From the NCBI RefSeq assembly GCF_023277115.1, contig NZ_JALQCS010000001.1:2226001-2290000 (forward strand): 64,000 bases of DNA, given 5' to 3'. The stretch's first letter is position 1, and each line of letters begins with the position of its first letter. The notes under the pieces are model-generated. The model was given only the letters and a program-made list of their open reading frames with translations. It had not been told where the DNA came from and ran no database searches. This DNA is from Acidithiobacillus acidisediminis. Lineage in GTDB: Bacteria > Pseudomonadota > Gammaproteobacteria > Acidithiobacillales > Acidithiobacillaceae. The translations under genes were made by a program, and so were the position numbers. Below are positions 17,923-37,135 of this stretch, in pieces.

Positions 17923-18302
17923 CGAACGGGTTCCCCTTCCGTGTTTTTGGCAGGTTTCTTTTTGGCGGTCATCCGGGAAAGCAGCTTTGCGGTAAGCGAT
18001 GGCGACTGGGTCTGCGGGATATCCCGATAGGGCGCGTCCAGACTCGCGGCATCCCCATAAAATGGCTGGTACTTGCGTGAGCGCATCACCACATCGATCA
18101 TTTGCGCATCGTTTTTGGCGAGCATCTGTAAAACCGCCTGAGCCGCAACGAACAGCACCACGGCGACGATGATGCCGGGGATGGACATGGTAAAGAAGTA
18201 TACCATCATGGCAAAAACAGCATTCCACATCGTTGCCCTGCGTTCGGCCCCCATCAAGAGATGGGGGCGAACCAGAGACTGGTACAAACGGACTTCGCGC
18301 AT
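17919..18302 (-). CDS. trbD: TrbD/VirB3-like inner-membrane protein
   Basis: A 127-aa protein with an N-terminal LYQSLVRPHLLMGAERR segment, typical of VirB3/TrbD, then a membrane hairpin (VFAMMVYFFTMSIPGIIVAVVLF) and a cytoplasmic tail rich in Lys/Pro. VirB3 family members associate with the VirB4 ATPase. It starts 5 nt after trbC and overlaps trbE by ATGA. Length fits the family. Confidence 0.85.
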   Translation of the reverse strand: MREVRLYQSLVRPHLLMGAERRATMWNAVFAMMVYFFTMSIPGIIVAVVLFVAAQAVLQMLAKNDAQMIDVVMRSRKYQPFYGDAASLDAPYRDIPQTQSPSLTAKLLSRMTAKKKPAKNTEGEPVR

Positions 18303-18307
18303 GCGCC

Positions 18308-18703
18308 TTACAGTCCGAGACCGTGTGCGATCAGGGCAAGGGTCGACACATGCGCACCCATCGTCGCCGCCGAGATTCCCGCCTGCTGACCAAACCAGCC
18401 GTACTGGCTGATGAGGAAGCCGCCGCCAGCCGCGGTACCGACACCCATGGCCGCCTTACCATAGTCATGCTTGAACGCATGGACGGCACCATAGCCAATA
18501 CCCCCAGCGACACCGACACTGCCGATGAACGGCATGAAGTTACTCTGGACGAAGTTGCTGATTGCTCCAAAAGGACCGCCGCTCGCAGCCATTGCCACAT
18601 CGGCCACCATGGCCGCACCCACACCAACCAGAACAGGCAGCGCCGACTTCCAGAAACCGCGCCCCTTGCCAACCTTCTCCCGCACAACCATCTGTTGTCC
18701 CAT
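18308..18703 (-). CDS. trbC: TrbC/VirB2-like conjugative pilin
   Basis: A 131-aa pilin precursor: a basic start (VVREKVGKGRGFWK), a long hydrophobic signal (ALPVLVGVGAAMVADVAMA) with likely cleavage after AMAA, and a second hydrophobic region around IGSVGVAGGIGYGAV. VirB2-family pilins form the conjugative pilus. ATG 18703 is preceded by AAGGGGG; the frame upstream is a shadow. A GCTATACC element lies 50 nt upstream, making this the first gene of the trbCDE operon. Confidence 0.8.
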   Translation of the reverse strand: MGQQMVVREKVGKGRGFWKSALPVLVGVGAAMVADVAMAASGGPFGAISNFVQSNFMPFIGSVGVAGGIGYGAVHAFKHDYGKAAMGVGTAAGGGFLISQYGWFGQQAGISAATMGAHVSTLALIAHGLGL

Positions 18704-18753
18704 ACAACCCCCTTGATCTTCCCAGTAGCCAGGCGAAACGCACGCCTCTACTC

Positions 18754-18761
18754 GGTATAGC
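18754..18761 (-). promoter_or_regulatory. GCTATACC element upstream of trbC
   Basis: Exact minus-strand octamer 50 nt before the trbC ATG. Confidence 0.6.
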
Positions 18762-18980
18762 GAGGGGGGAATGGGATACGGGCGGGGCTGCCGGCACAGC
18801 CTTGGATGGTGTAACATGCTGCTTGGTGGCACCAAGAGGATACAGAAATGGGATGGCGGCCAGACAAAACTATGGCCCGATGCCTCTTGGGCTCTCCATT
18901 CTGCAATCGTGGAGCCCAAGTGATACAGAAAAAGGAAAATAACAGGTTTGTTCAGTGATCAACAGCGTACATCAGGTATC

Positions 18981-21690: not shown

Positions 21691-23262
21691 TTATGAAAAG
21701 TTTCCGCACACCCATGCAACTGTGGTTGGAGCGTTTCCATTACTAAAACCTGTAGCATATGCCTGCCAAGAGTATTGTCCATTGGAATAAGGGCCTCCAG
21801 ACGGGTAGACTGCAGCATATCCATTGTAAGTCCAAGCAGAACCCATCAAGTAACAAAGATCCCAATTTCCAAGGTTGAATGCCTGTCCATTGTCGCTGGA
21901 CGCACTTCCAGTGGTTCCGATATTAAAATTGGTACCCCCCATCGCTTGCCAAGACCCATTATTACACGTCAGCACCTGCCCACTCCCATTGGCATTCGCC
22001 GCGATCGCGCCATTCGGCGAACATCCCCAGCCGATGTTGGCCGAGCCGCCCGCTGTGCCCAGGGTCGCGTCGTAATTGGCTTGTACCTGACCGCCGGCAA
22101 CAATATTGCCGTTCGACCAGATATAATTCGACCCTAGGGCATTGTTGGCGGTGAAGGTTCCAGCCACTGCGCCGTTACCCTGATTATTGATCCATCCCGC
22201 GGCCCCGCCATTTACCGTAATGGCATTTTGCGCATTCACGTTACCTGTGCTGTTGACGTAGCCCCCCTGAACCGTGCCATTCGTCACGATGGACGCCCCG
22301 CCATTTTGCGATTGCATGTACGCATAGTTCGCCCCATTTAGCGAACTGGTAACTACCTGGCCGCCACCCCCTATGCCTCCATTGAAATCGTTCATGTACG
22401 CATTCAGGCTGCCGTTCTCTCCTGTGCCAACCGTGCCATTTGCGTATATGTCCCAGGAATGAATACCGCCACCCCAACCGCCAGGGAAACCTTGGCCCGC
22501 CTGTTCGTCAACTCCCAGTTGTCCCTGTAGACTAGCCGGACTACCCCCGTGTGCTGCTCCGGGGTTTCCCAAAGTAACATCGTCGTTGACGTTCACATTT
22601 TGGGCATTATTGACATTGTTGTTCCCCATATCCAGATTCGTCTGCATCTGGTTGAGTTGTGGTTGCCCGGGAACCGCAACACGGTACAGATAATCGTTCT
22701 GCACCTGCCCGTTGCTGTACTCGATGAGAGCAGCCAGGTGCCCCGGCTGGGCCGCCGTGTAGGCAGTTGGCACTTTCCAGCCCGCATACACACCACAAGC
22801 CTCACCCGCAGCACAACCTGGAACCGCCGTGTTCCCGGTTCCGCCGCCAACGACACCGCCTGGGCTGCCTGCAATCTGCGCTGCAAGCCCCAAGGACTGC
22901 GTATTGACAGCCTGCCCCCCCGTCGAGAGCACCAATGCCTGCAACTGACCAGCGGACGGCTGTAATACCTGCACCTCCCAGGTTTGGTTGTATGGATTGT
23001 TCGCCTGGAAACCGTTGGGCAGGTATCCCGTGTTCACCAGCATGGGGATGGTGATCGTGACCGGACTGGTGGCCGTCGCCTGTCCCTCGATGTTTGCGGA
23101 GTACGTGGTGATGTACCCCTCGGCGGCTTTCTGGATACGCGCCATTTGCAGGGCTGCAACCGTCGCCATGGTCTGGCGGCTCTGGTAGTTCAGGTAATGC
23201 ACACCCAGAGGCGCCATGATGGCAAGCCCAATCAGTACAAAAACCATCGCTATTGGATTCAT
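21691..23262 (-). CDS. pilV: PilV-like minor pilin/adhesin
   Basis: A 523-aa tip adhesin of the R64-type thin pilus. It begins MNPIAMVFVLIG with a hydrophobic alpha-N domain, then YQSRQTMATVAALQMARIQKAAEGY as in type IVb pilins, then a long Gly/Asn-rich region with repeating NGxV-like strands. The C-terminus has GCSPNGAIAANANGSGQVLTC, resembling the receptor-binding ends of R64 PilV. SD AGGGGG precedes ATG 23262. I see no rci recombinase or shufflon repeats, so the C-terminus seems fixed. It ends 8 nt from the convergent GT-C gene. Confidence 0.8.
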   Translation of the reverse strand: MNPIAMVFVLIGLAIMAPLGVHYLNYQSRQTMATVAALQMARIQKAAEGYITTYSANIEGQATATSPVTITIPMLVNTGYLPNGFQANNPYNQTWEVQVLQPSAGQLQALVLSTGGQAVNTQSLGLAAQIAGSPGGVVGGGTGNTAVPGCAAGEACGVYAGWKVPTAYTAAQPGHLAALIEYSNGQVQNDYLYRVAVPGQPQLNQMQTNLDMGNNNVNNAQNVNVNDDVTLGNPGAAHGGSPASLQGQLGVDEQAGQGFPGGWGGGIHSWDIYANGTVGTGENGSLNAYMNDFNGGIGGGGQVVTSSLNGANYAYMQSQNGGASIVTNGTVQGGYVNSTGNVNAQNAITVNGGAAGWINNQGNGAVAGTFTANNALGSNYIWSNGNIVAGGQVQANYDATLGTAGGSANIGWGCSPNGAIAANANGSGQVLTCNNGSWQAMGGTNFNIGTTGSASSDNGQAFNLGNWDLCYLMGSAWTYNGYAAVYPSGGPYSNGQYSWQAYATGFSNGNAPTTVAWVCGNFS

Positions 23263-23275
23263 GACCGGTTACCCC

Positions 23276-23773
23276 CTAGTTGTTCTCGTTGCTTGGATAC
23301 TGAACCATCCAGGCCAGATCGCCATTGGCAGCGCCTGCAGGTGCCGCGCCGATCCCGATGCCACCGCATTCGGAAAGTATCTCGCCATTCTGGACATAGC
23401 CATACGCACAATCATTCGTTGTCTCATCGCTGACCATGCCCATGTCATTCGACGTGGCGGAATCCGTCCAGACGACCAGATCTCCACCCTGATCCTGTGC
23501 TTGCCAGTTCGGCGGGAAAGCCACACCGCCCATATACGGAGCCAACTGCTGTGCCGTATAACTCCCCCCGGATGGAGCATTCGCTTCCGCATAGGCCAAG
23601 GTAGCCCTGCTGACCGCGATAAAATCATAAACGTTGGAAGCGCTGTCCTCAGAACTTCCATCAGCAGGCTGTTGGCTGTACACCGGCACGATCCCCGAGC
23701 GTGAGGGAATCTGCAGGGAGGCCCCCATGAACAGCAAGAAGGACAGGAACATCAACGGAAAGACATAGACCAT
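23276..23773 (-). CDS. pilM: PilM-like thin pilus protein
   Basis: A 165-aa protein with one N-terminal membrane anchor (MVYVFPLMFLSFLLFMGASL) and a periplasmic domain starting YSQQPADG, including VYDFIAVSRATLAYAEAN. Size and layout fit R64 PilM, required for thin pilus formation. ATG 23773 overlaps the upstream small membrane gene by 22 nt. It directly precedes pilV. Confidence 0.65.
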   Translation of the reverse strand: MVYVFPLMFLSFLLFMGASLQIPSRSGIVPVYSQQPADGSSEDSASNVYDFIAVSRATLAYAEANAPSGGSYTAQQLAPYMGGVAFPPNWQAQDQGGDLVVWTDSATSNDMGMVSDETTNDCAYGYVQNGEILSECGGIGIGAAPAGAANGDLAWMVQYPSNENN

Positions 23774-24024
23774 GCCGACACCCTCAGACCGATTGCAAGG
23801 AGAGCCACACGGCGATCCGCAGGGGTCACGATCAGTCGCACCATTCTCCCCGTCCCGTCCCGCCAGGCCGACCAGGCAGCCAAAACCGCAGAGAGAAGCC
23901 ACCCCAAGGACATCCACCACGCACCTTGCCAGACGAACCAAAGAAAGCCGGCAAAGCTCACCAGAGCGCAGGCAACGTCAAAGGATCGCCAGGATGCCAT
24001 GCGGGAAGCCCCTCTCCGGATCAT
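23752..24024 (-). CDS. Small two-helix membrane protein in the pil operon
   Basis: A 90-aa protein with two hydrophobic segments (ACALVSFAGFLWFVW and MSLGWLLSAVLAAW) and a basic C-terminal part. ATG 24024 overlaps the stop of the PilT-like ATPase gene (ATGA) and its 3' end overlaps pilM. No family recognised; it may be a pilus assembly accessory protein. Confidence 0.55.
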   Translation of the reverse strand: MIRRGASRMASWRSFDVACALVSFAGFLWFVWQGAWWMSLGWLLSAVLAAWSAWRDGTGRMVRLIVTPADRRVALLAIGLRVSAWSMSFR

Positions 24025-24977
24025 CGGAGTATCCCCGTGCCAGCGACTCTCTGCCCGCCAGGGATTGCGCCACCCATGACGGCACGATTGCGCTGCATTT
24101 CGATGTCCTGCTGCAAACTGGAGAGATTTCCTTCCCGAATCTTGATGCGCATGGCCTCATCCTCGACAAAGAATGGCTGCACCAGGAGTACCTTTTGCCT
24201 TCCTGCCGGACTCATGCGCACATCCAGCCGCAGCGTCACCACGGCCTTGAGGGATTGCGCAATGCTGTCGAAACCGGCCAGCATGCCGATCTTGAGGATG
24301 GCCTGTTGCGGATTGTCCGCGTGTACGGTGCTGACGACGAGCATGCCACTGGCCGCCGCAAGACAGGCAGCCTTGGCCGACTGTTCTTCGCGGATTTCCC
24401 CGATATAAAAGGTATCCGCGCCACTGCGCAAGGTATCCATCAGCACCCGCATGACTTCGGAGTCCTCACCAATCTCTTCCTGATAGCACTGCCCTGCCCC
24501 ATGAGCCCCCTGCAAATCGAACTCCACCGGATTTTCCGCCGTCCAGGTAAAACCCCCGATTCTTTCCAGGCGATCCATCAACAGGGCACAGGCCGTCGTG
24601 GTCTTCCCGGACCCCGGCCCACCAGAAAAGAGCACAAAGCCCGCCCGGAGTCTGGGATCGCGAAGACTCTGCACGATGGGCGCCGGCAGGCCCAATTCGT
24701 CGATTTTGCGTAATGCCGAAGAAATCTTCCGTGCCACGAACACGGGACCATACGGTGTATGGCGCAACTGCACCCGCAATCGCATTCCATGAAACTCTAT
24801 GCGAAAACGGCTTCCGCTTTGTTGCAGAAGCGTTTCCCGGAGCGCCTGGACTTCCGGCCACAGCGCATTGGGCACCTGGTTGACCGCCAAATCCTCCGAG
24901 AAACGCTTGTAACGGCAGGCTGCTGGTTCCGACTCGATGGCAATATCCGAAAAATCGAGATCGGCAAGACCTGCCAT
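24021..24977 (-). CDS. PilT/GspE-family ATPase (second ATPase of the pilus locus)
   Basis: A 318-aa secretion/retraction-type ATPase. Walker A is SGGPGSGKTTT near residue 120, an acidic ENPVEF box follows, and Walker B is FYIGEIREE near residue 190, with a His box (VVSTVHADNP). It lacks the N-terminal extension and the tetracysteine zinc site seen in PilQ, so it resembles PilT retraction ATPases more than assembly ATPases. R64 itself has only PilQ. ATG 24977 has AAGGAG. It lies between pilS and pilM. Confidence 0.8.
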   Translation of the reverse strand: MAGLADLDFSDIAIESEPAACRYKRFSEDLAVNQVPNALWPEVQALRETLLQQSGSRFRIEFHGMRLRVQLRHTPYGPVFVARKISSALRKIDELGLPAPIVQSLRDPRLRAGFVLFSGGPGSGKTTTACALLMDRLERIGGFTWTAENPVEFDLQGAHGAGQCYQEEIGEDSEVMRVLMDTLRSGADTFYIGEIREEQSAKAACLAAASGMLVVSTVHADNPQQAILKIGMLAGFDSIAQSLKAVVTLRLDVRMSPAGRQKVLLVQPFFVEDEAMRIKIREGNLSSLQQDIEMQRNRAVMGGAIPGGQRVAGTGILR

Positions 24978-25051
24978 AAAAGCGCTCCTTCATTGATGAA
25001 CCGTGAATATAAGTGGTGTGGTCAGATTGCTCTGGCAAACCACATCTGCAC

Positions 25052-25558
25052 TTACTGTCCGTTACTGAACACAAAGCCCAGCGAGGTCACCCCGCCGCTG
25101 CCGCAAGCGGATTGCGCCTGGGACCCCGTCGGTGTGTTGTTGGCATTGCCAACAGCGGTGCCATCAACCAACGTCGATACGGTATCGACCTGTGAGACAA
25201 TCTGCTTGCAGATGGACGCGCTGAGATTGACTCCGCTGACTTCCACCTCGTACTCATAGTTGGGCAAGCCAGCCCCACCAGACTGCACATTGAAAGTCCC
25301 GCCAATTGGCGTGGTTGCCTGCAAAGCTTCCGGAATGACGCACTGTGGGTTCGCCGTGCCAGACCCACAGTTTGAACTGACCCCCGAATAATTTCCCTGC
25401 ACACCAAACACCTTGTTGACCGCGCCCTGAATCGTCGTCACGTCCTGCACAAACGTGCCCGCCTCACTACCGTGCAGCAGGGAGATGCCTGCAACCACGC
25501 CAGCGATTACGAAGAGCACGAAGACGATGCCGACGAACACCATCGTAATCGGGTTCAT
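25052..25558 (-). CDS. pilS: PilS-like major pilin
   Basis: A 168-aa pilin: MNPITMVFVG then a hydrophobic helix and SEAGTFVQDVTTIQGAVNKVFG, followed by a C-terminal domain with paired cysteines (SNCGSG/QCVIP and SICKQ/SACGSG). This matches type IVb pilins such as R64 PilS. The N-terminus is almost identical in its first residues to PilV. A classical charged leader and Glu+5 are not obvious. A GCTATACC element is 46 nt upstream, although pilR immediately precedes on the same strand. Confidence 0.75.
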   Translation of the reverse strand: MNPITMVFVGIVFVLFVIAGVVAGISLLHGSEAGTFVQDVTTIQGAVNKVFGVQGNYSGVSSNCGSGTANPQCVIPEALQATTPIGGTFNVQSGGAGLPNYEYEVEVSGVNLSASICKQIVSQVDTVSTLVDGTAVGNANNTPTGSQAQSACGSGGVTSLGFVFSNGQ

Positions 25559-25604
25559 AACCTACAACCTCCTTTCTGGGACCAAAAAAAACACCTCACC
25601 TGCC

Positions 25605-25612
25605 GGTATAGC
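25605..25612 (-). promoter_or_regulatory. GCTATACC element upstream of pilS
   Basis: Exact minus-strand octamer in the pilR-pilS gap, 46 nt before the pilS ATG. This suggests separate, probably stronger, expression of the major pilin. Confidence 0.6.
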
Positions 25613-25640
25613 CAGACCCATTCCGGATACACCAAACCTC

Positions 25641-26744
25641 TCAATGCGCAGCCGCCGTGAGCACGCTCTGCAACTGCGTCATTCCGGCAACGGCCAGCAA
25701 AAACACCCCGTTGACTCCCACAGTCGTGGAGATTGTCAGTAATGACACCATCCCCATGATCTTTTCCTCTGTCTCGTCCAACCATTCCCGCGCGAGCTTC
25801 TCGACCAGTTGCGGGAAGTCCGCCGCGCCAGAGAATGCCGACAAATCATCGGCCACGATGCGATCAGGGAAGCCGTATTCGCCATCGATGAAAGCCTTGC
25901 CGATCTCCGCACCGTTTTTCACCCGGATGGCGGCATCATGCAGTCGCTCTGCCATCCACGGGGTGGCCATCTCCGCCTGTAACTGCAAAGCTTCCGCTTG
26001 CGGAATGCCGGCACGGGAAAGCTTGGAGAAAGCCAGCATCCATTGCGCCCCTTGCAAGCGCCGATACAGGCTCCACGGCGGAATCGACTCCACCACACGG
26101 CGGGACCTCCCCGCCCAGCGCGGCAAGGAAATGAAGGCGGCCACAATGGAAATCACAAAGAGAATCAGGAATCCATAAAAAAATGGACTCACCGCCATAT
26201 CGCCCAGTGGCACCATGAGCCTTGCCAAAAAGGGCCAAGTGTTTGTCGGTGCGATTTCTGCAATCGGCGGCACCATCTGGGTACCGATCAAATACAGCAG
26301 ATACAACAACAACAGGGACATGACGCCCGGCTCGATCAGGGCAAAAATGATGCGCGAGATGACCTTGGCAATGATGCCGCTTCCCTGCAAAACACTGCGC
26401 AACGCATCCGGAAGCTCTCCAGATCCCTCACCTGCCCGGATGATGGACAACTCCGATGCCGGCGCCCAATCGGCAAGCGCCTGCGAGAACATTTCTCCAT
26501 TTGCCAGGCGGTCGTGAATCTCGCTGAGGGCGATCGCATCGGCATCCATGAGGGCGAAGAATCCATCGGGATCCTTGTATCGGCCCTTCACTTGATCGAG
26601 CAGCCGTTTCACCGCCTGCCTGGGAGGCGTGCCGTTATCGACATACACCGCCAGGCGCCGGTAAAAAGCCCCACGCTTTTTGGTGCCCCAGCTTTTGTGG
26701 GCGAGCGCCTTCAGAAAATCTTCGAACCAGACCGGCACAGCCAT
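25641..26744 (-). CDS. pilR: PilR-like inner-membrane platform protein (GspF family)
   Basis: A 367-aa GspF/PilC-type protein. Two cytoplasmic T2SF domains are visible (residues about 20-130, with AGEGSGELPDAL, and 230-340), separated by membrane helices (VMSLLLLYLLYLIG and FFYGFLILFVISIVAAF) and closed by a C-terminal helix. It anchors the pilus assembly ATPase PilQ. ATG shares its A with the pilQ stop (TAATG). Confidence 0.88.
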   Translation of the reverse strand: MAVPVWFEDFLKALAHKSWGTKKRGAFYRRLAVYVDNGTPPRQAVKRLLDQVKGRYKDPDGFFALMDADAIALSEIHDRLANGEMFSQALADWAPASELSIIRAGEGSGELPDALRSVLQGSGIIAKVISRIIFALIEPGVMSLLLLYLLYLIGTQMVPPIAEIAPTNTWPFLARLMVPLGDMAVSPFFYGFLILFVISIVAAFISLPRWAGRSRRVVESIPPWSLYRRLQGAQWMLAFSKLSRAGIPQAEALQLQAEMATPWMAERLHDAAIRVKNGAEIGKAFIDGEYGFPDRIVADDLSAFSGAADFPQLVEKLAREWLDETEEKIMGMVSLLTISTTVGVNGVFLLAVAGMTQLQSVLTAAAH

Positions 26745-28396
26745 TACAAATCCTCCCGGGTCAAAGCCCGCAGAGCCTCCGGTCTGGGTTCGATAGGGCC
26801 CAGCATTTCCGCAACGAAGCGCGGATCCGTTTTGCCTGCCAGCACTTTCAGTACGGCATGGGCTTCCATCGGTATTTCTGCGTCGGGACGTGCCAGATAG
26901 CTTCGGCGCGCAGCCATTGGTCCCTCATTGACCATGGCAATCAGCAGATCCTCATCCGTCGGCACCACTTGCGAAACCACGGTACGGCCAGCAATGCCGG
27001 TACCCCGGCAATGCGCGCATCCCGGACCCTTGAGCCGCACCCCTTCCAGGGGAAACTCTGGCGTTACCCAGGTCTTGATGGCCTCCCAGTCCTCGATGTC
27101 GACCCCTTGCGCCCGAACGGACTGTTCATCGGCAGGGATGGCGCAGTGTTGGCACAAAGTCTTTACCAGACGTTGCGCTATCAGGGAGGACAACATCTTG
27201 GGATCCTGCAGGTAGAATCCGTCCACCCCCATGGCCACCAGACGTTGCACAATCATGAACGGATCGGAGACGTGCAGCGTCGTCCATACCTGGTGGCCGG
27301 TAATGGACGCATTGATCGCCTCTTTTGCCACCTCCAGACCACGGATTTCGCCAACCACCACAATGTCCGGGTCCTGGCGAAGGGCAGTTTTGAGCTTGCC
27401 CGAGAACGCCCGGTTCTTTTCCTCGTCGGTATTGGCGTTGGCGATCAGGTATTGCCAGACGTAATCCGTGCCAAACACATACTCCACAGGATCCTCGATG
27501 GTGATGATCCGCACCCCATGGCGCATCCGCAGGATGCTGTGAATCATCTGCGCAAGCGTCGTGGACTTGCCGGAACCCGTTGGGCCGGTAAACGGATTGA
27601 TCCCCATGGTCTGGCGTGCCAGACGATACAGAATGTGCCGCTGGCGCTTGGAGTACCCCAACTGCTCCAGGAGATCGGCATCCTCTCTCGGTTTCTCCAA
27701 CCGATATAGAAGCCGCGCAGCCAGGTTCATGCCGTCATACAACGGCGCCCGCGCCAGGCGTATGCCGGATAACCCCAAATCTTCGCCAGCGTCGCTGCGT
27801 AGCAGGGCCGGATTGACGATGACGGCATGCTGATCTTCCGTCTCACGGAAAGAAGCATCGGAAACCGCGGCCATGCCCTGGAACATGGCGCGGATCATCT
27901 GCGATCCCTCGGAGAAGGGGAACTGCATACGATCCTCGACGGTTCCGCGCACCCGGAACTGCACCGACATGTGTCCCTTGCCGGCTTCACCATGCAGGGA
28001 AAAGTGAATATCGCTGGCCTTTTCCTGTACGGCCTGTGCGACGATGCGGCGCACCTGCCGGACGGCAGAAAGATTGGCTTCCGAGGATTGCGCAACACTA
28101 CTGCGCACCTGCGCCAGGGCCTCCATATCGCATTCCACGATGTCTATGGTGAACCCCGCACGCGCCAATTCGGCCCGCCAGGACTGGATAACCGGCATCC
28201 CATGCCGACCCTTCAGGATATACAGGCGATTCCCGTCGATTGCGGCATACTCTTTCGCAGCGTCCGGGAAAGGATGCTGTCCAATCGCTTCGTCGATAGT
28301 CTTCGGACCTGCAGATTCCTGGGGTTCCGCAGAATCTTTTTCCCCAGATCGTAGGCGACCCTGCTGAAAGCGGCGCAAAAATTCGTTATCTGCCAT
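26744..28396 (-). CDS. pilQ: PilQ-like pilus assembly ATPase (GspE family)
   Basis: Cytoplasmic hexameric ATPase that drives thin pilus extension, 550 aa. Walker A is GPTGSGKSTTL, the Asp box is IEDPVEYVF, Walker B is IVVVGEIRG and the His box is TTLHVSDP. A zinc tetracysteine is present (CQHC and CAHCRGTG). The start ATG 28396 follows AAAGGA; the longer frame upstream is a shadow of pilP. It sits between pilP and pilR, the R64 order. Confidence 0.9.
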   Translation of the reverse strand: MADNEFLRRFQQGRLRSGEKDSAEPQESAGPKTIDEAIGQHPFPDAAKEYAAIDGNRLYILKGRHGMPVIQSWRAELARAGFTIDIVECDMEALAQVRSSVAQSSEANLSAVRQVRRIVAQAVQEKASDIHFSLHGEAGKGHMSVQFRVRGTVEDRMQFPFSEGSQMIRAMFQGMAAVSDASFRETEDQHAVIVNPALLRSDAGEDLGLSGIRLARAPLYDGMNLAARLLYRLEKPREDADLLEQLGYSKRQRHILYRLARQTMGINPFTGPTGSGKSTTLAQMIHSILRMRHGVRIITIEDPVEYVFGTDYVWQYLIANANTDEEKNRAFSGKLKTALRQDPDIVVVGEIRGLEVAKEAINASITGHQVWTTLHVSDPFMIVQRLVAMGVDGFYLQDPKMLSSLIAQRLVKTLCQHCAIPADEQSVRAQGVDIEDWEAIKTWVTPEFPLEGVRLKGPGCAHCRGTGIAGRTVVSQVVPTDEDLLIAMVNEGPMAARRSYLARPDAEIPMEAHAVLKVLAGKTDPRFVAEMLGPIEPRPEALRALTREDL

Positions 28397-28400
28397 TCGA

Positions 28401-29102
28401 TTATTCCTTTGGCATGGGCGGAGCGCCAACAGGAGGCAGGTTTTGCGGAATGCCCTGGGTGACATTCGGCGGCAGGAAAGAATTGCCACCACCACCGCTA
28501 GATGGACCAGCGAAGGTGTTGCCAGATGGCGCAACGGAAGCGCCATCGGAAGCCACAAACGGCAACAGCAGACGCTTGCCCTGATGATCCAGATACACTC
28601 CGCTGCCCGATATCGCGGCGACCTTGCCCCAGGGAGCAACGCTGGCGCCGACCCGCACCGCCACCGTACCGCCGCCAGGCAAGGCAAGATCGGCAACATC
28701 CCCGTTACTGCCCCCAAGGATGCTCACCACCTTGGGGAGCCTGTGATCTCCAGAATCCCCGTTCGGCATGGAACCATTCGGCATCGCCGTTACCGGCATG
28801 GCTTGCGGATAAGCAGTCTGGTTACTGCCCAAGGATTTCCCTTCTTTTACTCTCTTGATTTCCACCTTGAGCTTGGCGATTTCGAGTTTTTCCTTGAGCA
28901 GGGACGCTTCGCTCTGCGCATTGGCAAGCGCCCCGAACGTCGCCGGAGACACGCTGGCGGGGATAGAGACCGAACTGCCAGTGTTGCCACCAGCACCAAC
29001 CGGAGACGCGAATCCCATCCCGGTCCCCGACAAAAAGAACACTGGCCCGGCACACAACATCGCCAGACGCAATGGTAAAATATGGTTTTTTGTGCGAGAC
29101 AT
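28401..29102 (-). CDS. pilP: PilP-like pilus assembly protein
   Basis: A 233-aa exported protein with a signal peptide (LRLAMLCAGPVFFLSGTGMGFASP). It has a coiled region (LLKEKLEIAKLKVEIKRVK) and a C-terminal beta domain (VVSILGG .. AVRVGASVAPWGKVAAISGSGVYL), as in R64 PilP/GspC-like periplasmic partners of the secretin. ATG 29102 has AAAGGAG; ATG 29123 overlapping the pilO stop is the alternative. Confidence 0.8.
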   Translation of the reverse strand: MSRTKNHILPLRLAMLCAGPVFFLSGTGMGFASPVGAGGNTGSSVSIPASVSPATFGALANAQSEASLLKEKLEIAKLKVEIKRVKEGKSLGSNQTAYPQAMPVTAMPNGSMPNGDSGDHRLPKVVSILGGSNGDVADLALPGGGTVAVRVGASVAPWGKVAAISGSGVYLDHQGKRLLLPFVASDGASVAPSGNTFAGPSSGGGGNSFLPPNVTQGIPQNLPPVGAPPMPKE

Positions 29103-29119
29103 CTTTTGCTCCTTTGCCC

Positions 29120-30505
29120 TCATTGCATACCGCCAGAAGAAACCACATCTGTGCCGGGAACACGCGGTACATCATTTTTTGGTGAACGAACGGCAATGGC
29201 TGACCTTGGTGCCGAAAAAGCCGCATTTGGGCTATACAGATCCCCAATGGCCTTCAAGGTAATGGCGCCGGTTTTCGATGGCGTGAACAGCAGTTGGGTG
29301 AATCGCAGCCCTGGAATATCCCAAAGGCTTTGATTACCCCATTGCGCCAGAGGGCCCTTCAACACCACATTCATCGTTTCCCATGGTTTTTCGCTTTTCG
29401 CTGGCTTTGGTGCGGGTCTCTCCCCAGGCAAGGTTTTTTGCACAGGCGCAACCGGAGCGCTGAGGCGGATATCCAGAGCCAAAGCCTGCGCAACTCCATA
29501 GGCAGTTTCTTCGGCACGTTGGACCGGCAAAGTCTGCCCGTCACCAGAAGCCGCTATGGACCCAACCCGCAGTGTCTGCAGAACGGTTTTGCCACGCTCC
29601 AGCAACTGTCCTTTGGGTCGATACAGGGCCGTCGCCCCGGGCGACCAGGACCAGGTCTCCTGTGCAAGCACCTGCCCGTTGGAAACACGACAGGCAATCG
29701 ACTTCAGACCCCAGCCCTTGTCCGATAAAGGAATGCCTTGCGCAAAGCCCATGCAATCCCGGAGGAATGCCGAGGGAAAGGGCTGTGCCGCCCAGGGGAG
29801 CACACGGTTTGCCGCGCGGCGTGCAGCCATGGCACGCTCGATGGCGATGCGCTGTTCTTGCGCCAATAACTGCGATTTTTCAACCTGTTCTTCGTGTATG
29901 TGCCAAAAAACCAGACCGCCGGCTGCGGCAGCCGCCAATGCCCCACCACCCAAAATGGCGGGCATGGCCGGATTCTTCCGGACATCGACGACTGGCGTGA
30001 TCTTTGGGCCTTGCCGCAGAATCTCCGCAATTTCCTCCAATCCGCCATCCCGAAAAACGGAAGGCTCTCCATAAGCGGCATGCTGCCGCCGCAAGTTGTC
30101 TACAGCTTCCCAATCACCAACCGCGTCGCCATCTGGCAATATCTCGTAGCTGTCCCGAACGGCAATGTACCAGTACAGCCCATTGCCCAGATCGAAAATG
30201 CCCAGCCACGGCTCCTGCAGAACATCGGCCATAGCCGCCGCAAGAGAATAGGCAGTTCCCCTATAGACCTTGTTGAGCGCGGCTTTCTTGCCGCCTTCGG
30301 TCAGGAAATCCGCGCCCGTCAACGGGCGGGAAAACCCGGACTGCAGGGACCGGCTTTTGGTTCGGCGTTGCGCCACCCAAAAGTCCGTCCCGCGAGCCCC
30401 AGCCAGCAAGGTTTTTCGCGATGGCTTTCGGTCCTCATGCCGCCAATACATCCCGGCGACGAAAACCCGTTTGTCACCAGGAATCTTGATCAATCCTGGC
30501 ATCAA
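29120..30505 (-). CDS. pilO: PilO-like pilus assembly protein
   Basis: A 461-aa bitopic membrane protein. The N-terminal cytoplasmic part (residues 1-180) contains LLAGARGTDFWVAQRRT and WLGIFDLGNGLYWYIAVRDS, typical of the R64 PilO family. A membrane helix near residue 185-200 (LGGGALAAAAAGGLVFW) is followed by a coiled periplasmic domain. It overlaps pilN by ATGA. Function in R64: inner-membrane assembly component. Confidence 0.82.
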   Translation of the reverse strand: MMPGLIKIPGDKRVFVAGMYWRHEDRKPSRKTLLAGARGTDFWVAQRRTKSRSLQSGFSRPLTGADFLTEGGKKAALNKVYRGTAYSLAAAMADVLQEPWLGIFDLGNGLYWYIAVRDSYEILPDGDAVGDWEAVDNLRRQHAAYGEPSVFRDGGLEEIAEILRQGPKITPVVDVRKNPAMPAILGGGALAAAAAGGLVFWHIHEEQVEKSQLLAQEQRIAIERAMAARRAANRVLPWAAQPFPSAFLRDCMGFAQGIPLSDKGWGLKSIACRVSNGQVLAQETWSWSPGATALYRPKGQLLERGKTVLQTLRVGSIAASGDGQTLPVQRAEETAYGVAQALALDIRLSAPVAPVQKTLPGERPAPKPAKSEKPWETMNVVLKGPLAQWGNQSLWDIPGLRFTQLLFTPSKTGAITLKAIGDLYSPNAAFSAPRSAIAVRSPKNDVPRVPGTDVVSSGGMQ

Positions 30506-32133
30506 AGAATCCTCGCCGTAATCACAATGGCGATCATCTGCCTGGAGAGGCTGGCATCCGCGCCTCCACCCAAGAGCGGGAAGTACGGACTGCCTACGCC
30601 ATTGTGTGTCGTGCTGTCATCATTCTGGGAGAACCCGGTCAACAACAATGTCTGCCCCGGCTTCAACTTCACCGACTGCTGGAAGGTAGAGCTGTCAACC
30701 GTCGGAACCTGAATGCTGCTTCCATTGCTGCTGATAGTCTGTATGCCAACCAGATTGCTGATGGTCATGTTCATCCCCAACAGAATCTTCCCATCGACCA
30801 CCTTGGGCAGGAACATCGCGGTAAAGCCCGTCGTAACCGTTCCCGGAATCAGCCCGCTGGTCGTCCCCACATTGGCGGTTGCCGTGGAACTGCTCTCCGC
30901 CAGATATCCCGTCTGCTGCGCCACCTGAATCGGCGCCGGCTCACCATTCAACGAAACCGCTGACCGGCTGAACACCTGCGTGACGTGCCCCAAGGTCGAT
31001 AACGCCTGGACGGCGACACTGCTGCCCTGCCACTGACCCAAGGCGCCGGTGGCCGTACTCAGGATATTTGCCCCCAAAGAAAGCGGCGAAACGCTTCCCG
31101 TCGTCTTGGGCGGGGCAACCCCTTGCAGGCTCACGCCATACTTGTTGGCAATGGCGTTGAATGCACCAGACAGGTTCAGGCCATAATTCTGCTCATTGTT
31201 GAGGTTCACATTATAGACGTGCACCGTAATCGCCACCTGACGGGTAAGCTGACGTGACAGGCCTTGAACCCAATCGTGGATTCTGCGCACTTGTGGCGGA
31301 GTGCCCGTCACCGTAACGGTCCCCGTAGCCGGGTCCGTTACCACCTGCCCGCCACCAGCAACCGTTTCTGCTACCTTGTCCAGAGTTTTCCAGACATCCA
31401 CTTTGGATGTGTTGGTAATGCTGGTGGTGCCGGTAGACTCATTACCGCCACTACTACCGCCACTTCCGCCAGTAGACCCCATGGAAGAACCACCAAGGCC
31501 ACCAGAAGAACTGCTACTGCTGCCACTCGCACCGGCAGAGGCAACGATCGATCCGGAAGATTCCGTAGCCCAATCCAGTGCCGGCAAAGAAAAAGACCTT
31601 GTTTCCGTGCGGAAAATCTCAACGGCACCATTACGGTAATGCCACCAGACACCGTTCTTCGCGGTAATCATGTTCAGCAGACCGGAAACGCTTCCCTGCC
31701 AGTCCAGAGGGATCTCCACGGCGTGCGACTGACCAGAAGTCCCACCTATGCCACCGGACTGGCTTGGCAAGGGCGGAAGAAAGGTTCCGGGTTTCCCCTC
31801 GTTGGCGGCGGCAAGATCCTCCACATGCACGGGGATCCCCGTGATCTCAGAAATTTTTCCGGCAATTTGCTGAATCGTCAGCGGATTGGCAGAAACCAGG
31901 GTGATGTTCCGCCGCAAAATCTCCGGCGTGGATTGCCGTACATCAACCGCCGCGCCCATCAGATACGGCGTATCCACCGTAGTCACCACAGGAGGCGGTA
32001 CAGGCTGCTGATATTGGGCGATTTTCGCCTCGGTCGATTCCTGCATCTGGTGAACCTGGTGAAAAGTGGCGCAGCCAGAGAGTGCAACCACTGCCAGCGC
32101 CAGAGCGGATTGCAACGTGTTTTTCCTGCGCAT
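30502..32133 (-). CDS. pilN: PilN-like lipoprotein secretin
   Basis: Outer-membrane secretin pore for the thin pilus, 543 aa. The lipobox ALSGC gives a lipidated N-terminus. N-domains (LTIQQIAGKISEITGIPVHVED) and a Ser/Gly-rich spacer of about 45 residues follow. The C-terminal secretin domain shows VQALSTLGHVTQVF, NGEPAPIQV and KLKPGQTLLLTGF. ATG 32133 directly abuts the stop of the transglycosylase gene, with AAAGGAG upstream. Confidence 0.9.
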   Translation of the reverse strand: MRRKNTLQSALALAVVALSGCATFHQVHQMQESTEAKIAQYQQPVPPPVVTTVDTPYLMGAAVDVRQSTPEILRRNITLVSANPLTIQQIAGKISEITGIPVHVEDLAAANEGKPGTFLPPLPSQSGGIGGTSGQSHAVEIPLDWQGSVSGLLNMITAKNGVWWHYRNGAVEIFRTETRSFSLPALDWATESSGSIVASAGASGSSSSSSGGLGGSSMGSTGGSGGSSGGNESTGTTSITNTSKVDVWKTLDKVAETVAGGGQVVTDPATGTVTVTGTPPQVRRIHDWVQGLSRQLTRQVAITVHVYNVNLNNEQNYGLNLSGAFNAIANKYGVSLQGVAPPKTTGSVSPLSLGANILSTATGALGQWQGSSVAVQALSTLGHVTQVFSRSAVSLNGEPAPIQVAQQTGYLAESSSTATANVGTTSGLIPGTVTTGFTAMFLPKVVDGKILLGMNMTISNLVGIQTISSNGSSIQVPTVDSSTFQQSVKLKPGQTLLLTGFSQNDDSTTHNGVGSPYFPLLGGGADASLSRQMIAIVITARIL

Positions 32134-32829
32134 CTACTGCACTCCTTTGTGTGAATACTGCTCAAATCGGGAAATCACCGCGGGGACGTACTGTTGCGTC
32201 TGCCGGAAAGGCGGGATCCGGTATCCGGCGTCCACCACCGCCTGGCCTCCGGCGTTGTACCCGGCAACGGCCAGTGGCCAGCTTTTCAGCCGCAATTCCA
32301 AATGCCGCAGATACCTGGCGCCAGCAAAGATGGCGTCCCTGGGATCAAAAGGGCTGCCCTGCCCGAATCGTACCCAGGTGCCAGGCATGAACTGCATGAG
32401 GCCCTGCGCGCCTTTGTCGCTGACCGCATCAGGATGGAAACCTGATTCCTGCGCGGCAACCGCCAGAATCATGGCAGCAGGGACCCCGGTCGCCGCCGAT
32501 GCCTGATTGGCCCAGCGCACGAACCGCGAGGGGATGGCAGGCAAAGCTGTGGGGTACACAAAGTGCCCACGGGCAGAAATTCCCCGCCCTCCATCTGCAT
32601 ACAGCTTCTCCACCGCCAGAATCCAGGTGCCAGCCGCAATGCCCCAACAAGGGCTCTTGCGGACGGCGCTTGCCGAAAAACCATAGGCAGTCAGTACCGG
32701 CAGCCATTGCTGTGGGATACCCATGGGTCCGACGCCGGATTTGGCCCGCCCTGCCGCCGTCATTACCCGCTCGATGGCGGAGACGGGGACGTGGTAGGCA
32801 GTCGCGGCTTCGTTCAGGCAGGCGAGCAT
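32134..32829 (-). CDS. Two-domain lytic transglycosylase (PilT of R64 / VirB1 type)
   Basis: A 231-aa protein with two successive transglycosylase-like domains. The C-terminal one (residues 110-225) is canonical: VAAQESGFHPDAVS with the catalytic Glu, KGAQGLMQFMPGTW, AGARYLR and LAVAGYNAG. The N-terminal one (1-85) matches VirB1/TrbN-type domains (GPMGIPQQWLPVL, CWGIAAGTWILA), but the expected Glu position reads MTAAGR, so it looks inactive. No signal peptide is visible at ATG 32829. It would open peptidoglycan for pilus assembly. First gene before pilN. Confidence 0.8.
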   Translation of the reverse strand: MLACLNEAATAYHVPVSAIERVMTAAGRAKSGVGPMGIPQQWLPVLTAYGFSASAVRKSPCWGIAAGTWILAVEKLYADGGRGISARGHFVYPTALPAIPSRFVRWANQASAATGVPAAMILAVAAQESGFHPDAVSDKGAQGLMQFMPGTWVRFGQGSPFDPRDAIFAGARYLRHLELRLKSWPLAVAGYNAGGQAVVDAGYRIPPFRQTQQYVPAVISRFEQYSHKGVQ

Positions 32830-32924
32830 ACGTTTGCCTTAGACGAGAAATTGGCGGGGCACTCCCCATCACCATACAATGAAGCCCCTTTTAACCACAT
32901 TGCATAGATCAAAGGATTGTCCCC

Positions 32925-33302
32925 ATGAAAGTTTTTATTCGTTATCTCATCAGCTCCACCGCAACAGTCATTGCGATTTCCCTCTCCGGTTGCGCCAGTC
33001 ACCATTCCAAATACAACGCTTGCGCCAAATCCAACCAATGCGTATCTCATATGATTAGCAAATTTGGACAGGCTGCAGCCACCAACATAGCTGCTCCAGA
33101 CGATATAAATGTAATGAAAGACTTGCATTCTGCTGATTTCCTTCAGTCAGTACGTTTCTGGAAAGAACAGGAAAAACATGACACCCAGCTTTGGGTTAAA
33201 GCCAGTACATTGTGTGATGGGCTGGTGAACGGTCACTCCACTTATCGCAGTCATGACGTATTTTTCCCTGTTGGATGCGCTATGCTGCCTGGAGGATTGT
33301 GA
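32925..33302 (+). CDS. Small lipoprotein, opposite strand in the pil locus
   Basis: A 125-aa lipoprotein precursor with a clear lipobox (ISLSGCAS) after a hydrophobic signal. The mature part has four more cysteines, suggesting disulfides. It is one of few plus-strand genes in the pilus region and its 3' end overlaps the opposite gene by 52 nt. Many conjugative elements encode small surface or entry-exclusion lipoproteins; that role is only a suggestion. Confidence 0.65.
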   Translation: MKVFIRYLISSTATVIAISLSGCASHHSKYNACAKSNQCVSHMISKFGQAAATNIAAPDDINVMKDLHSADFLQSVRFWKEQEKHDTQLWVKASTLCDGLVNGHSTYRSHDVFFPVGCAMLPGGL

Positions 33303-33676
33303 GTAACCACTATGCCAAAGCGATAACCATCCCCAAGAGAAACCAGATGACTGGCAGGAGTGGCGATCCAGCGGTGGATAGACCACACCATTTGTCGTCT
33401 TTTTTGCACGTCGATTCGAACGTAACGCATGCCGCGAATCCGTTTCCCGTGATGCGTTGGCGTTATGATTATTCGTATCTTTTCGTTTCCAAAGTAAAAA
33501 GATTCCAGTCCAATGTTGTTAGCACCAATCGACACTTGAGAAACGCTGCCAAAATGATTTATTGGAGTAGAATGCATGAAGATCATGGTGCCAACGTTGG
33601 CGTTTGCCATCGCCAACGCAGGAACCATCATCAAACCGAGCGCCATACCACATATAGCCTTTCCCAACATCGTCAT
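33251..33676 (-). CDS. Small exported protein coupled to pilL
   Basis: A 141-aa protein with a signal peptide (AICGMALGLMMVPALAMA|NANV) and a basic beta-rich mature domain (IRGMRYVRIDVQKRRQ). ATG 33676 overlaps the pilL stop (ATGA). Its 3' end overlaps the opposite-strand lipoprotein gene. No family recognised. Confidence 0.6.
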   Translation of the reverse strand: MTMLGKAICGMALGLMMVPALAMANANVGTMIFMHSTPINHFGSVSQVSIGANNIGLESFYFGNEKIRIIITPTHHGKRIRGMRYVRIDVQKRRQMVWSIHRWIATPASHLVSLGDGYRFGIVVTHNPPGSIAHPTGKNTS

Positions 33677-34515
33677 TCCCCACCCCCAGCGCCACTGATC
33701 ACCACGGTATTGTTCGCCGTATGAAACACCGCATGGACGTTCGCGCCGTTGGCGGAGAGCGCCTGGATGACCTGGGAAACCGCTTTCCGGAAGCCACCGC
33801 TGAAAGTGGTGGTGTTCGGAACCGTCCAGTCCTCCGGCACCTGCCACACTACCGTCCAACCGGATTGCTCCGCCCACTTCTCCAGATCCGTCAAAATGAG
33901 GTCGCCGCGGTTCAACACGAATACAGGGCTGGCTCCGGCGAGAGATGGCATGGCAACGACGCTGGCCGGTCCCACATGGAAATTCGGCGGCAAGGATTCA
34001 GACAGGTGGCCGGAGGACGGCAAAGGCTCTGTCACCTGTTGCGGCATGGCCGAAGCTGGCGAAAGCTTCTCCTGCTGGTAACCGGCAAGCTTTGGCGCGG
34101 CAGAAACCGTAACCGGGACCCGTTCTACGGGTGGCGTCCACAACGTCAAAATCTGCTGATTCCACCACAGCGCGCCGTGCAGCCCTGCCTGGCGCAATTC
34201 CTCGCGCAAAGCCTGCGTCCAGTGCTCCTTGACCATGGAACCCATGACCACGATCGGAAACTGCAGACTTACGCCAGGCTTGCTGTAGACCTTCCAGCCA
34301 GCCGGCAAGGTCTGCCGAAGAGCAGCACGAACCGTCACCGTGCCCTTTCGCAAGTTCTTCGCCGCATGCGCCACACCAAAACCATGCACCGCAAGTGTCG
34401 GCTGTGTCTCCAGACTCTTGCGGAAACCCGACAGGTCTGGTCCTGGCGGAGGGGCCGACACGGTAATGGCCGGCGGCGTGGCGACGCGCAGTGGCGGTAC
34501 GAGAAACTGATACAT
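33673..34515 (-). CDS. pilL: PilL/TcpQ-like pilus biogenesis protein
   Basis: A 280-aa protein with two copies of a TcpQ-like module. The first (residues 55-130) includes VRAALRQTLPAGWKVY and LREELRQAGLHGALWW; the second (205-275) includes LEKWAEQSGWTVVW and VIQALSANGANVHAVF. This module links the secretin to the cell wall in type IVb pili and occurs at the C-terminus of R64 PilL. No signal peptide is visible at ATG 34515 (SD GAGGGG). A GCTATACC element lies 43 nt upstream. Confidence 0.7.
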   Translation of the reverse strand: MYQFLVPPLRVATPPAITVSAPPPGPDLSGFRKSLETQPTLAVHGFGVAHAAKNLRKGTVTVRAALRQTLPAGWKVYSKPGVSLQFPIVVMGSMVKEHWTQALREELRQAGLHGALWWNQQILTLWTPPVERVPVTVSAAPKLAGYQQEKLSPASAMPQQVTEPLPSSGHLSESLPPNFHVGPASVVAMPSLAGASPVFVLNRGDLILTDLEKWAEQSGWTVVWQVPEDWTVPNTTTFSGGFRKAVSQVIQALSANGANVHAVFHTANNTVVISGAGGGE

Positions 34516-34614: not shown

Positions 34615-36657
34615 CTAGATCTTCCCCTCGCCCAAAAACAGCATGTCGGATATGCGACGCCCGGCAGGAGCTTTCGAATCACGGGCAATCTGCACCACCA
34701 CGTCCACCGCTTCCTGGATCAGGTGCATCTGCGATGGGACACCCGCTTCCTGGCAAAGCTGGTCTAATCTGGTGAGTGCACCGGTCGGGTTGTTGGCGTG
34801 CAGCGTGGCAAGCCCGCCTGGGTGGCCAGTGTTCCAGGCCTTGAGTAGAGCCAGCGCCGCCCCGTCGCGCACCTCGCCCACAAAGATGCGGTCTGGACGG
34901 TAGCGCAAGGTCAGCTTCAGCAAGCGGGTCATGTCGATGCCGGCGTCTGGGTCAGTGAGCATCTGCACCGTATTGGGTGCGTTACATACAAGCTCGCGCC
35001 CGTCCTCGATGATGACAATTCGCTGGTCTAAACCAGAGATTTTTGCTATATGGTCGGACAGGGCGTTCAGGAAAGTGGTTTTTCCTGAGTTATGATGGAC
35101 TATAAAATCGCCATCCACATAAAGATGGTCACCATCTATCTCAAACCCATAGTATTCACCATACCCATGCGGCTCAATGGTAAACGCTGAACGGCTCCAG
35201 GAAGATGCTTTCTTGCGAACATCCGCCTGTTTTCTCGGTATCCGCGTTGGTATTTCGTGTAGATTCCCAGATAGTGTCAAGCTGAAACCCATGTGGCCAG
35301 CCTTCTTGGATTTCGTCAAACACTTCTTGATGCAAACTCCAAAGGAAAGCGATTCAGCCAAAAAAGCAACGTCTTTGGCTAGTACCGGGGATGCCGTGTA
35401 ATAATTAAAGGAATTGTTGGGGTCGTAGTGCCCATCGGTATCAAGCAGACCAGCGAGAAGTTGTAACCTTACCTCCCTGTCGGCAGCTTTATACTCAGAT
35501 GGGATAAACTTCTCCCAACCCCGCTTATTCATCAAACCAAGAGCGCGCATGTCCATTACAAGCCTGTTTGCGCCTTTCCGACCATGCTTGCCCTCTTTCT
35601 GCACCAAGAAGTAAGAGTGCTTTCCATTTTTCCAGTGGGTAGTAACCCTCACTTTCAAATCGTACTTCTCTGCTTGCCTGTATACCTCATCAACAATCTC
35701 TTGGTCGGATTTCGTCACCTGAACAGAACCGAGCAAGCAACCATCGCCAATCAAGACGCCAAGAAAGTATGGGTCCACGATAAGCGGCTTTGATGCTCCA
35801 AACGACTCAATCCCTGTCCGGCGTAGCTTATAGGCAATGCTGTCTAAAACCAGACACCGTAAGCGTTGAGAACGTGGGTGTTGTGATATATGCTTGTAGG
35901 CTTCCTCAGCAGTTATCTCCAACTCATGAAGATTGCCTCCAACTATGGACTTCCCACTTAAAGGCAGAATATGTCCTGCGTTGACCACGAACGCATCACC
36001 CTTGCCCGGTTGTATCCGGTACATCTGGTCTTGGCCTCGATGTAGGCGAACAACTGTCCGTGGCCTGCTGTCCGGCCCCATAACCTTATCGCCAACCACA
36101 ACATCCTCTACAGGCTTGATAGACCCATCTGCCATCAAAATAGGATGTCCTTTTGCGTGGCAGCCCGTCCCACCACTCACCAGGATATTCTTCCGCCCAT
36201 CGATGGCAGCAACGAGTTTCCCGCGCTGTTCTTCGGTCAGAATCCCGGAACTAACGTAATCGTCCAGCGTAAAAATCTTCGTTGCCGGCAACCGGATGGC
36301 AAACGTCGGCGTTGGCGTCAAAGGCGGAATACAGCCCGCAAAGCGCGCCCGCCGGAACTCCGGTGGCATGGCGCCCTCGACAATCGGCTTGTCACGCCCC
36401 ACCGTGGTTTCCCGGTAACTTGCCATGAGCCCCAGCAAATTGACCGCCTTGGCCGCCGGCATCAAAGTCAACTCGGTGATACCCTGACCATGCCGCTCGA
36501 CCAAAACCCGCCCATCGTCGTTCAGCATGATTTCGACAGCAGAAGGATCCTCAAAAACCGCGCAAATCTCCGAACCCAGAATCCGGCGCATCTGCTCGAT
36601 CAGACGCGCATGCTGTTCCGCCTTTGCCTTGTCTATGGCGTGCAGGGCATCACTCAT
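34615..36657 (-). CDS. trbB: TrbB/VirB11-family ATPase interrupted by an intein
   Basis: Traffic ATPase of the conjugation apparatus. Exteins of 165 and 157 residues join to a 322-aa protein, the normal TrbB size. The N-extein has FEDPSAVEIMLNDDGRV and ends SGGTG; the C-extein starts SGKTTFLNAL, so the intein splits the Walker A P-loop (GGTGSGKTT). The C-extein also carries IIEDGRELVC, RYRPDRIFVGEVRDG (Walker B) and LATLHANNP. ATG 36657 overlaps the preceding RHH gene. Activity requires protein splicing. Unlike RP4, it is separated from trbC by the pil locus. Confidence 0.93.
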   Translation of the reverse strand: MSDALHAIDKAKAEQHARLIEQMRRILGSEICAVFEDPSAVEIMLNDDGRVLVERHGQGITELTLMPAAKAVNLLGLMASYRETTVGRDKPIVEGAMPPEFRRARFAGCIPPLTPTPTFAIRLPATKIFTLDDYVSSGILTEEQRGKLVAAIDGRKNILVSGGTGCHAKGHPILMADGSIKPVEDVVVGDKVMGPDSRPRTVVRLHRGQDQMYRIQPGKGDAFVVNAGHILPLSGKSIVGGNLHELEITAEEAYKHISQHPRSQRLRCLVLDSIAYKLRRTGIESFGASKPLIVDPYFLGVLIGDGCLLGSVQVTKSDQEIVDEVYRQAEKYDLKVRVTTHWKNGKHSYFLVQKEGKHGRKGANRLVMDMRALGLMNKRGWEKFIPSEYKAADREVRLQLLAGLLDTDGHYDPNNSFNYYTASPVLAKDVAFLAESLSFGVCIKKCLTKSKKAGHMGFSLTLSGNLHEIPTRIPRKQADVRKKASSWSRSAFTIEPHGYGEYYGFEIDGDHLYVDGDFIVHHNSGKTTFLNALSDHIAKISGLDQRIVIIEDGRELVCNAPNTVQMLTDPDAGIDMTRLLKLTLRYRPDRIFVGEVRDGAALALLKAWNTGHPGGLATLHANNPTGALTRLDQLCQEAGVPSQMHLIQEAVDVVVQIARDSKAPAGRRISDMLFLGEGKI
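35089..36162 (-). other. Intein with LAGLIDADG homing endonuclease in trbB
   Basis: In-frame insertion of 358 codons. It starts with Cys1 (CHAKGHPILMADG, block A) and ends FIVHHN with the penultimate His and terminal Asn; Ser is +1 in the extein. Block B (AFVVNAGHILPL) is visible. Two endonuclease motifs, FLGVLIGDGC and LLAGLLDTDGHYD, retain the acidic residues, so both splicing and homing may be active. The codons look more AT-rich than the exteins. Confidence 0.93.
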
Positions 36658-37135
36658 TAGGGGCTACATCCACTACGTTCGGAAGCCGCTCCAACGAAAG
36701 CCGTTCCTCCAAAAGCTGCGCGATCTTCCGCATGGCACGGGGACGACTCCCATCAAAACCAGTGGCTGCTACCTGCTTGATGAACCGGTCGTACCGGGTC
36801 AGCGCCGAAGACTGCACCGCCTCCGCCTCGTCCAGCGTCGGCTCCGGCAGATGCAACAGCATCAGCTTCACAAACAGATCGAACATGGCCACCAGGGTAT
36901 CCAACTCCGACAGCACAGCCTCGATATCCCCGCGACCAGCCAGAATGGTTGCCACCATGCGCCGCTCAAAAGAGCGCAAGTCACTGTCCTTCTGCTCCCT
37001 GGCCGCTTCGATCCCCCGAAGCGCGTAATCCGTCACCAGAGCGTTCTTCGAGACACCACGCTCCTTCGCCTCCGCCTCGATATGCTGGGCATAGCCGCCC
37101 AACAGCTTCACATTCGCATGTAACATGGCCGACAT
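36650..37135 (-). CDS. RHH-type regulatory protein heading the trbB operon
   Basis: A 161-aa protein with an N-terminal ribbon-helix-helix-like segment (VKLLGGYAQHIEAEAKERGVSKNALVTDYA) and a helical C-terminal domain (VLSELDTLVAMFDLFVKLMLLHL). It overlaps the trbB start by 8 nt. A GCTATACC element is 31 nt upstream. It could be the regulator of the transfer genes or a relaxosome accessory protein; the evidence is position plus fold pattern. Confidence 0.6.
   Translation of the reverse strand: MSAMLHANVKLLGGYAQHIEAEAKERGVSKNALVTDYALRGIEAAREQKDSDLRSFERRMVATILAGRGDIEAVLSELDTLVAMFDLFVKLMLLHLPEPTLDEAEAVQSSALTRYDRFIKQVAATGFDGSRPRAMRKIAQLLEERLSLERLPNVVDVAPNE

Follow-up and report, generated by a model that had tools for sequence, protein, structure and literature searches.

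P-loop ATPases are usual hosts of inteins (PMC5050341, PMC5874633), and public plasmid records contain P-loop inteins in the TraD protein of IncC plasmids, in DotL-type coupling proteins and in a TadA-like ATPase. IncC TraD carries a full-length intein with Ala1 at GSGK^T, which is present in six plasmid records at 99% or more, including KR827394.1 (L048:4822-7794); in the TraD of NZ_AP028311 an IS3-family element interrupts the intein region. This intein had no match in the E. coli genomes searched, and no publication on it was found in the open-access literature. DotL/TraM-recognition proteins encoded on Pseudomonas and Xanthomonas plasmids (L068:3569-6664; L069:3569-6688) have short inserts at GSGK^T that start with Pro and end in THN, apparently inteins without an endonuclease and with Pro at position 1. 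A similar coupling-type protein with an intein is encoded on the megaplasmid of Methylorubrum extorquens AM1, and a Miltoncostaea oceani plasmid (L047:4849-7170) encodes a P-loop intein in an ATPase of the T2SS/T4P/T4SS family (TadA-like). An earlier note on the DNA studied here had described an intein in the conjugative ATPase TrbB, a host for which it knew of no precedent. As regards the protein itself this holds, in that no report of an intein in TrbB or VirB11 was found in the open-access literature, and TrbB is a new host protein for a known kind of intein. The host class, on the other hand, is less unusual than was held, because the IncC TraD and DotL/TraM-recognition inteins were already in public records.

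The window analyzed, a stretch of 64,000 nucleotides from Acidithiobacillus acidisediminis, contains a trbB gene that is interrupted within its Walker A motif (SGGTG^SGKTT). The frame and boundaries of the insertion, as first proposed from the letters alone, were exact base for base. The intein comprises 1074 bp, or 358 codons, from the TGC codon of Cys1 to the AAC codon of Asn358, and corresponds to residues 166-523 of the TrbB precursor. The open reading frame of the precursor has no internal stops and the window has no ambiguous bases. In-frame excision yields KNILVSGGTG|SGKTTFLNAL, the P-loop of the uninterrupted trbB copies, and the exteins match NCBIfam TIGR02782 (TrbB) in two stretches with 375.5 bits against a cut-off of 304.55, confirming that a full-length intein splits the P-loop of TrbB between SGGTG and SGKTT.

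Pfam matches of the intein were Hom_end_hint (5.8e-20), Hom_end (4e-07) and LAGLIDADG_3 (1e-06). In the Hint segment Cys1, Asn61 and His64 are invariant in the alignment, His64 being the histidine of the block B motif VNAGH, and the C-terminal part contains YYGFEIDGD and then FIVHHN, followed by Ser+1. The endonuclease has PYFLGVLIGDG with Asp140 as motif 1 and LLAGLLDTDG with Asp243 as motif 2, in addition to Lys218. Translation and alignment agreed with the earlier note that Cys1, HHN, Ser+1 and both LAGLIDADG motifs with their acidic residues are intact. The features of a class-1 intein (Cys1, block B His, penultimate His, terminal Asn, Ser+1 and a host protein restored by excision) are all present, as are the two motifs with acidic residues of a LAGLIDADG homing endonuclease. 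Separate searches, which the same note had advised, identified the exteins as TrbB and the intein as a Hint/LAGLIDADG protein with PI-SceI as the nearest structure. PI-SceI was the best PDB sequence match (4e-16) as well as the best structural match of the predicted intein model (3.5e-19; TM-score 0.43), the model being moderate (mean pLDDT 72.9, pTM 0.59) with an uncertain domain arrangement, and the fold match being supporting evidence only. The GC content of the intein is 48% (GC3 50%) versus 59% (GC3 68-71%) for the exteins, which is consistent with a foreign origin. Judged from its sequence, the TrbB insert is a canonical class-1 full-length intein of the PI-SceI type and is predicted to splice.

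Table 1. Features of the intein-bearing trbB gene and its surroundings, in window positions
Feature	Position	Strand	Basis
Conserved gene upstream of trbB	36650..37135	(-)	71% identical to counterpart beside second trbB
trbB precursor, 680 aa, P-type conjugative transfer ATPase TrbB split by intein	34615-36657	(-)	TIGR02782
N-extein, 165 aa, ends ...NILVSGGTG	36163..36657	(-)	Translation, comparison with uninterrupted copy
Intein, 358 aa, Cys1...HHN	35089-36162	(-)	Pfam, PDB search, junction check, alignment
N-terminal splicing (Hint) segment, blocks A and B (CHAKGHPILM..., VNAGHIL)	35956..36162	(-)	Hom_end_hint residues 1-82
LAGLIDADG homing endonuclease core	35260..35772 (limits approximate)	(-)	Pfam, PDB search, alignment
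C-terminal splicing segment, blocks F and G (YYGFEIDGDHLYVDGDFIVHHN)	35089..35154	(-)	Translation, alignment
C-extein, starts with Ser+1 (SGKTT...), Walker B and His-box region intact	34615..35088	(-)	T2SSE 9.6e-30
Type IV (thin) pilus module: TcpQ, SLT, secretin, PilO, GspE-type ATPase, T2SSF, shufflon-type PilV	21691..34515	(-)	Pfam
Likely trbC	18308-18919	(-)	Position and sequence, small ORF
Likely trbD	17919-18302	(-)	Position and sequence, small ORF
trbE	15346-18228	(-)	TrbE family matches; collinear with second element

The trb genes around the intein-bearing trbB comprise trbE, J, L, F, G and I together with VirD4/TraG, where trbJ and trbF, which have no family match, were assigned by position and by similarity between elements. 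The trbF, G and I genes lie beyond the window (G000:C1:2214423-2217592), the VirD4/TraG gene is located at 2169424, and a weak match at 2153090 is a relaxase candidate. Between trbF and trbL, within the trb region, there is an IS66 transposase gene. The element's remaining trb genes have open frames and have kept their families, and the trb set looks complete from its sequence, the relaxase being uncertain. On this gene content, the host of the intein is an integrated conjugative element of the P type, for which DNA transfer is predicted. The genome contains a second element, whose trbB is uninterrupted, encodes a protein 79% identical to the TrbB of the window and is followed by a compact set of trbE, J, L, F, G and I. 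The trb genes of the window's element are in the same order as these counterparts. In the second element the small trb genes and trbE follow directly after trbB, whereas in the window the pilus module with its shufflon-type PilV sits between trbB and the likely trbC-trbD-trbE, in a block of about 16 kb. A paper on mobile elements of Acidithiobacillus caldus describes trb-type ICEs with pil genes and mentions neither an intein nor TrbB. A plasmid search gave 77% identity to an A. caldus plasmid over 740 bp. Elsewhere in the window, two adjacent GGDEF-EAL proteins are encoded at 56982-59765 and 59759-62083.

The occupancy of the site was assessed in 29 genomes of the family and in 369 genomes sampled from the class. 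Among the 28 trbB genes of the family, 26 are uninterrupted (counted over the TIGR02782 cut-off) and two are occupied, namely that of the window and one in genome G012. Because 26 of 28 lack the intein, the insertion is no fixed domain of TrbB, and the empty-site comparison contradicts the reading that the earlier note had named as fatal to its proposal. All 20 trbB genes over the cut-off in the class sample are uninterrupted. When a TrbB/intein hybrid was used as the query against a phylum sample, the hits besides the window were all helicase inteins. Of the empty trbB genes, one is in the genome of the window and two belong to a congener. Most empty copies have the P-loop SGGTG|SGKTT and a few have GGTS, GGTA or GGAG; such residues before SGKT are seen in the empty copies L054 (G001:C1:1702524-1703471), L095, L110 and L113, and these changes at the intein target might yield poor homing targets.

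The occupied trbB of G012 (L052:6898-8307), followed by trbC/D/E-like genes, carries an intein at the same residue, GGTG^C...QGN^SGKST. The two inteins share their host protein and insertion residue and are 53% identical over the aligned splicing parts, but that of G012 is a mini-intein of 152 residues without an endonuclease and with a QGN end, whereas that of the window has 358 residues and an HHN end. The QGN C terminus of the G012 intein lacks the usual penultimate His, and its splicing competence is doubtful.

The exteins of the window's trbB were compared with uninterrupted copies. The N-extein has 76% amino acid identity to the uninterrupted trbB of the same genome, and comparison with two uninterrupted copies gave an extein dN of 0.16 and a dS of about 1.5-1.6, that is, a dN/dS of about 0.1, which is a rough ratio with dS near saturation and does not give the date of the insertion. 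The low extein dN/dS is consistent with long-term purifying selection. No clear co-conversion tract was seen in the DNA identity around the insertion. The empty site deduced for the window's trbB is GGTGGGACGGGC^TCAGGAAAAACC, and by manual count the second trbB differs from that of the window at 7 of 30 bases flanking the insertion site. The intein-less second trbB has remained unconverted, as would be expected if the endonuclease is inactive, the target has diverged or the opportunity was simply lacking; because 7 of 30 site bases differ, it may not be a homing target.

Intein splicing by established chemistry involves an N-S acyl shift, transfer, Asn cyclization and a final acyl shift. For the window's trbB, the precursor would be translated as a single 680-residue chain, and because its P-loop is split, normal binding of ATP is not expected and the chain should be inactive as an ATPase. 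The Hint domain would catalyze the N-S acyl shift at Cys1 and then transfer to Ser+1, after which Asn358 would cyclize with the aid of the adjacent His and an acyl shift would produce a normal peptide bond. The splicing product would be a 322-residue TrbB with an intact SGGTGSGKTT. The endonuclease of the freed intein would cut empty trbB alleles encountered during conjugation, and repair templated by the intein-bearing copy would spread the intein. The lineage itself would have jumped into TrbB, most likely from a helicase of phage or plasmid origin that is interrupted in the G^SGK register. Taken together, we consider it very probable that the Walker A loop of TrbB holds a bona fide class-1 LAGLIDADG intein that splices, homes and came from a P-loop ATPase.

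An extension of this reading is that splicing is conditional, responding to redox, pH or metal, and gates assembly of the ATPase and hence conjugation. The intein would then be a post-translational switch owned by a nested mobile element that spreads through the very mating it controls. The position in the P-loop would make activity dependent on splicing, and other ATPase inteins are reported to be condition-responsive: a DnaB intein responds to oxidative stress (PMC6195587), another DnaB case to zinc (PMC7360933), and an intein-extein switch is described for RadA (PMC5790916). However, the occupancy is sporadic, at two of the 28 family genes, which a selfish element fits better than a conserved switch does. 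The second trbB could also supply TrbB in trans and so bypass the switch, which weakens the case that transfer depends on splicing. Gating of transfer by condition-responsive splicing is accordingly regarded as unlikely.

Another explanation is that the intein is degenerate and no longer splices, so that the TrbB of this element is dead and either the second trbB does the work or transfer has been lost. The presence of the intact second trbB, its lack of conversion by the endonuclease and the IS66 transposase gene between trbF and trbL would agree with decay. Yet every splicing residue is intact and the frame is open over all 358 codons; loss of splicing would normally bring decay of the exteins, which instead retain their catalytic motifs and a low dN/dS, and the rest of the element's trb genes are preserved as well. 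A dead intein is therefore thought very unlikely. An artefact of assembly or annotation can practically be dismissed, given the exact codon-level junctions that restore a consensus P-loop, the unambiguous bases and the related mini-intein at the same site in another genome.

The preferred reading of a splicing and homing intein includes its origin in another P-loop ATPase, which was addressed through its relatives. These were found in viral contigs, phages, plasmids and genomes, mostly in P-loop proteins (DnaB, SF2 helicases and a UvrD-type helicase), host proteins being stated only where the host was identified. Two registers occur among the relatives, one separating G from SGK and the other K from T. 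The G^SGK and GK^T clades are separated with support of 100/99 in a maximum-likelihood tree, on which the register changes once whereas the host protein changes at least three times. The TrbB intein groups with helicase inteins of the G^SGK clade; the tree is small and leaves the order within this clade unresolved. A sister grouping of the window and G012 TrbB inteins (p-AU 0.24) is plausible, being neither supported nor rejected. Since the inteins group by register and not by host protein, another P-loop ATPase was probably the source from which the lineage came to TrbB, and a helicase of a phage or plasmid that shares the G^SGK register is the most likely donor. The simplest reading is that it would have entered by an ectopic jump between P-loop genes encoding a similar target sequence. 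The TraD and TadA-like inteins, with Ala1 at GK^T in contrast to Cys1 at G^SGK in TrbB, form a separate lineage with support of 100/100 in a tree from which the DotL-type inserts were left out; inteins therefore entered the class of conjugation and secretion ATPases at least twice. The SF2 helicase of locus L126 appears to hold a further intein (CFMTGTPVS...), which lies downstream of the one in the P-loop and follows the DE of the second helicase motif.

The TrbB intein adds the VirB11-type conjugation motor to the hosts of inteins. Together with the TraD, DotL and TadA-like cases, it suggests that the presence of inteins in ATPases of conjugation and secretion has been little noticed. Mating would deliver the endonuclease-bearing intein directly to the empty trbB that is its target in a recipient cell, so the TrbB intein offers a naturally occurring model in which homing during conjugation can be tested. 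With an empty trbB in the same cell, homing and complementation are directly testable. That register tracks the intein lineage and host protein does not supports jumping from P-loop to P-loop as a route to new hosts.

Among known inteins, the P-loop inteins of a UvrD-type helicase from a viral contig and of SF2 helicases such as those of Klebsiella phage YX3973, phage phiHSIC and plasmid pSU2 share with the TrbB intein the register (G^SGK or G^CGK), the clade and, mostly, the CHA.G start and HHN or THN end, and are 40-49% identical over the aligned intein; their hosts are DNA helicases, whereas TrbB is a conjugation/secretion ATPase. The GK^T inteins of DnaB and SF2 helicases have related Hint and LAGLIDADG domains (35-43% identity), but sit three residues further along the P-loop and form a separate clade. 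PI-SceI, the yeast VMA1 intein and the closest solved structure, likewise combines a Hint domain with two LAGLIDADG motifs, but is 454 residues long, resides in a V-ATPase and has about 22% identity to the TrbB intein. The Ll.LtrB group II intron, located in a conjugative relaxase and shown to restrain conjugation (PMC6003770), resembles the TrbB intein as a mobile self-splicing element in a transfer gene, the difference being that Ll.LtrB is an RNA intron whereas the TrbB element is an intein.
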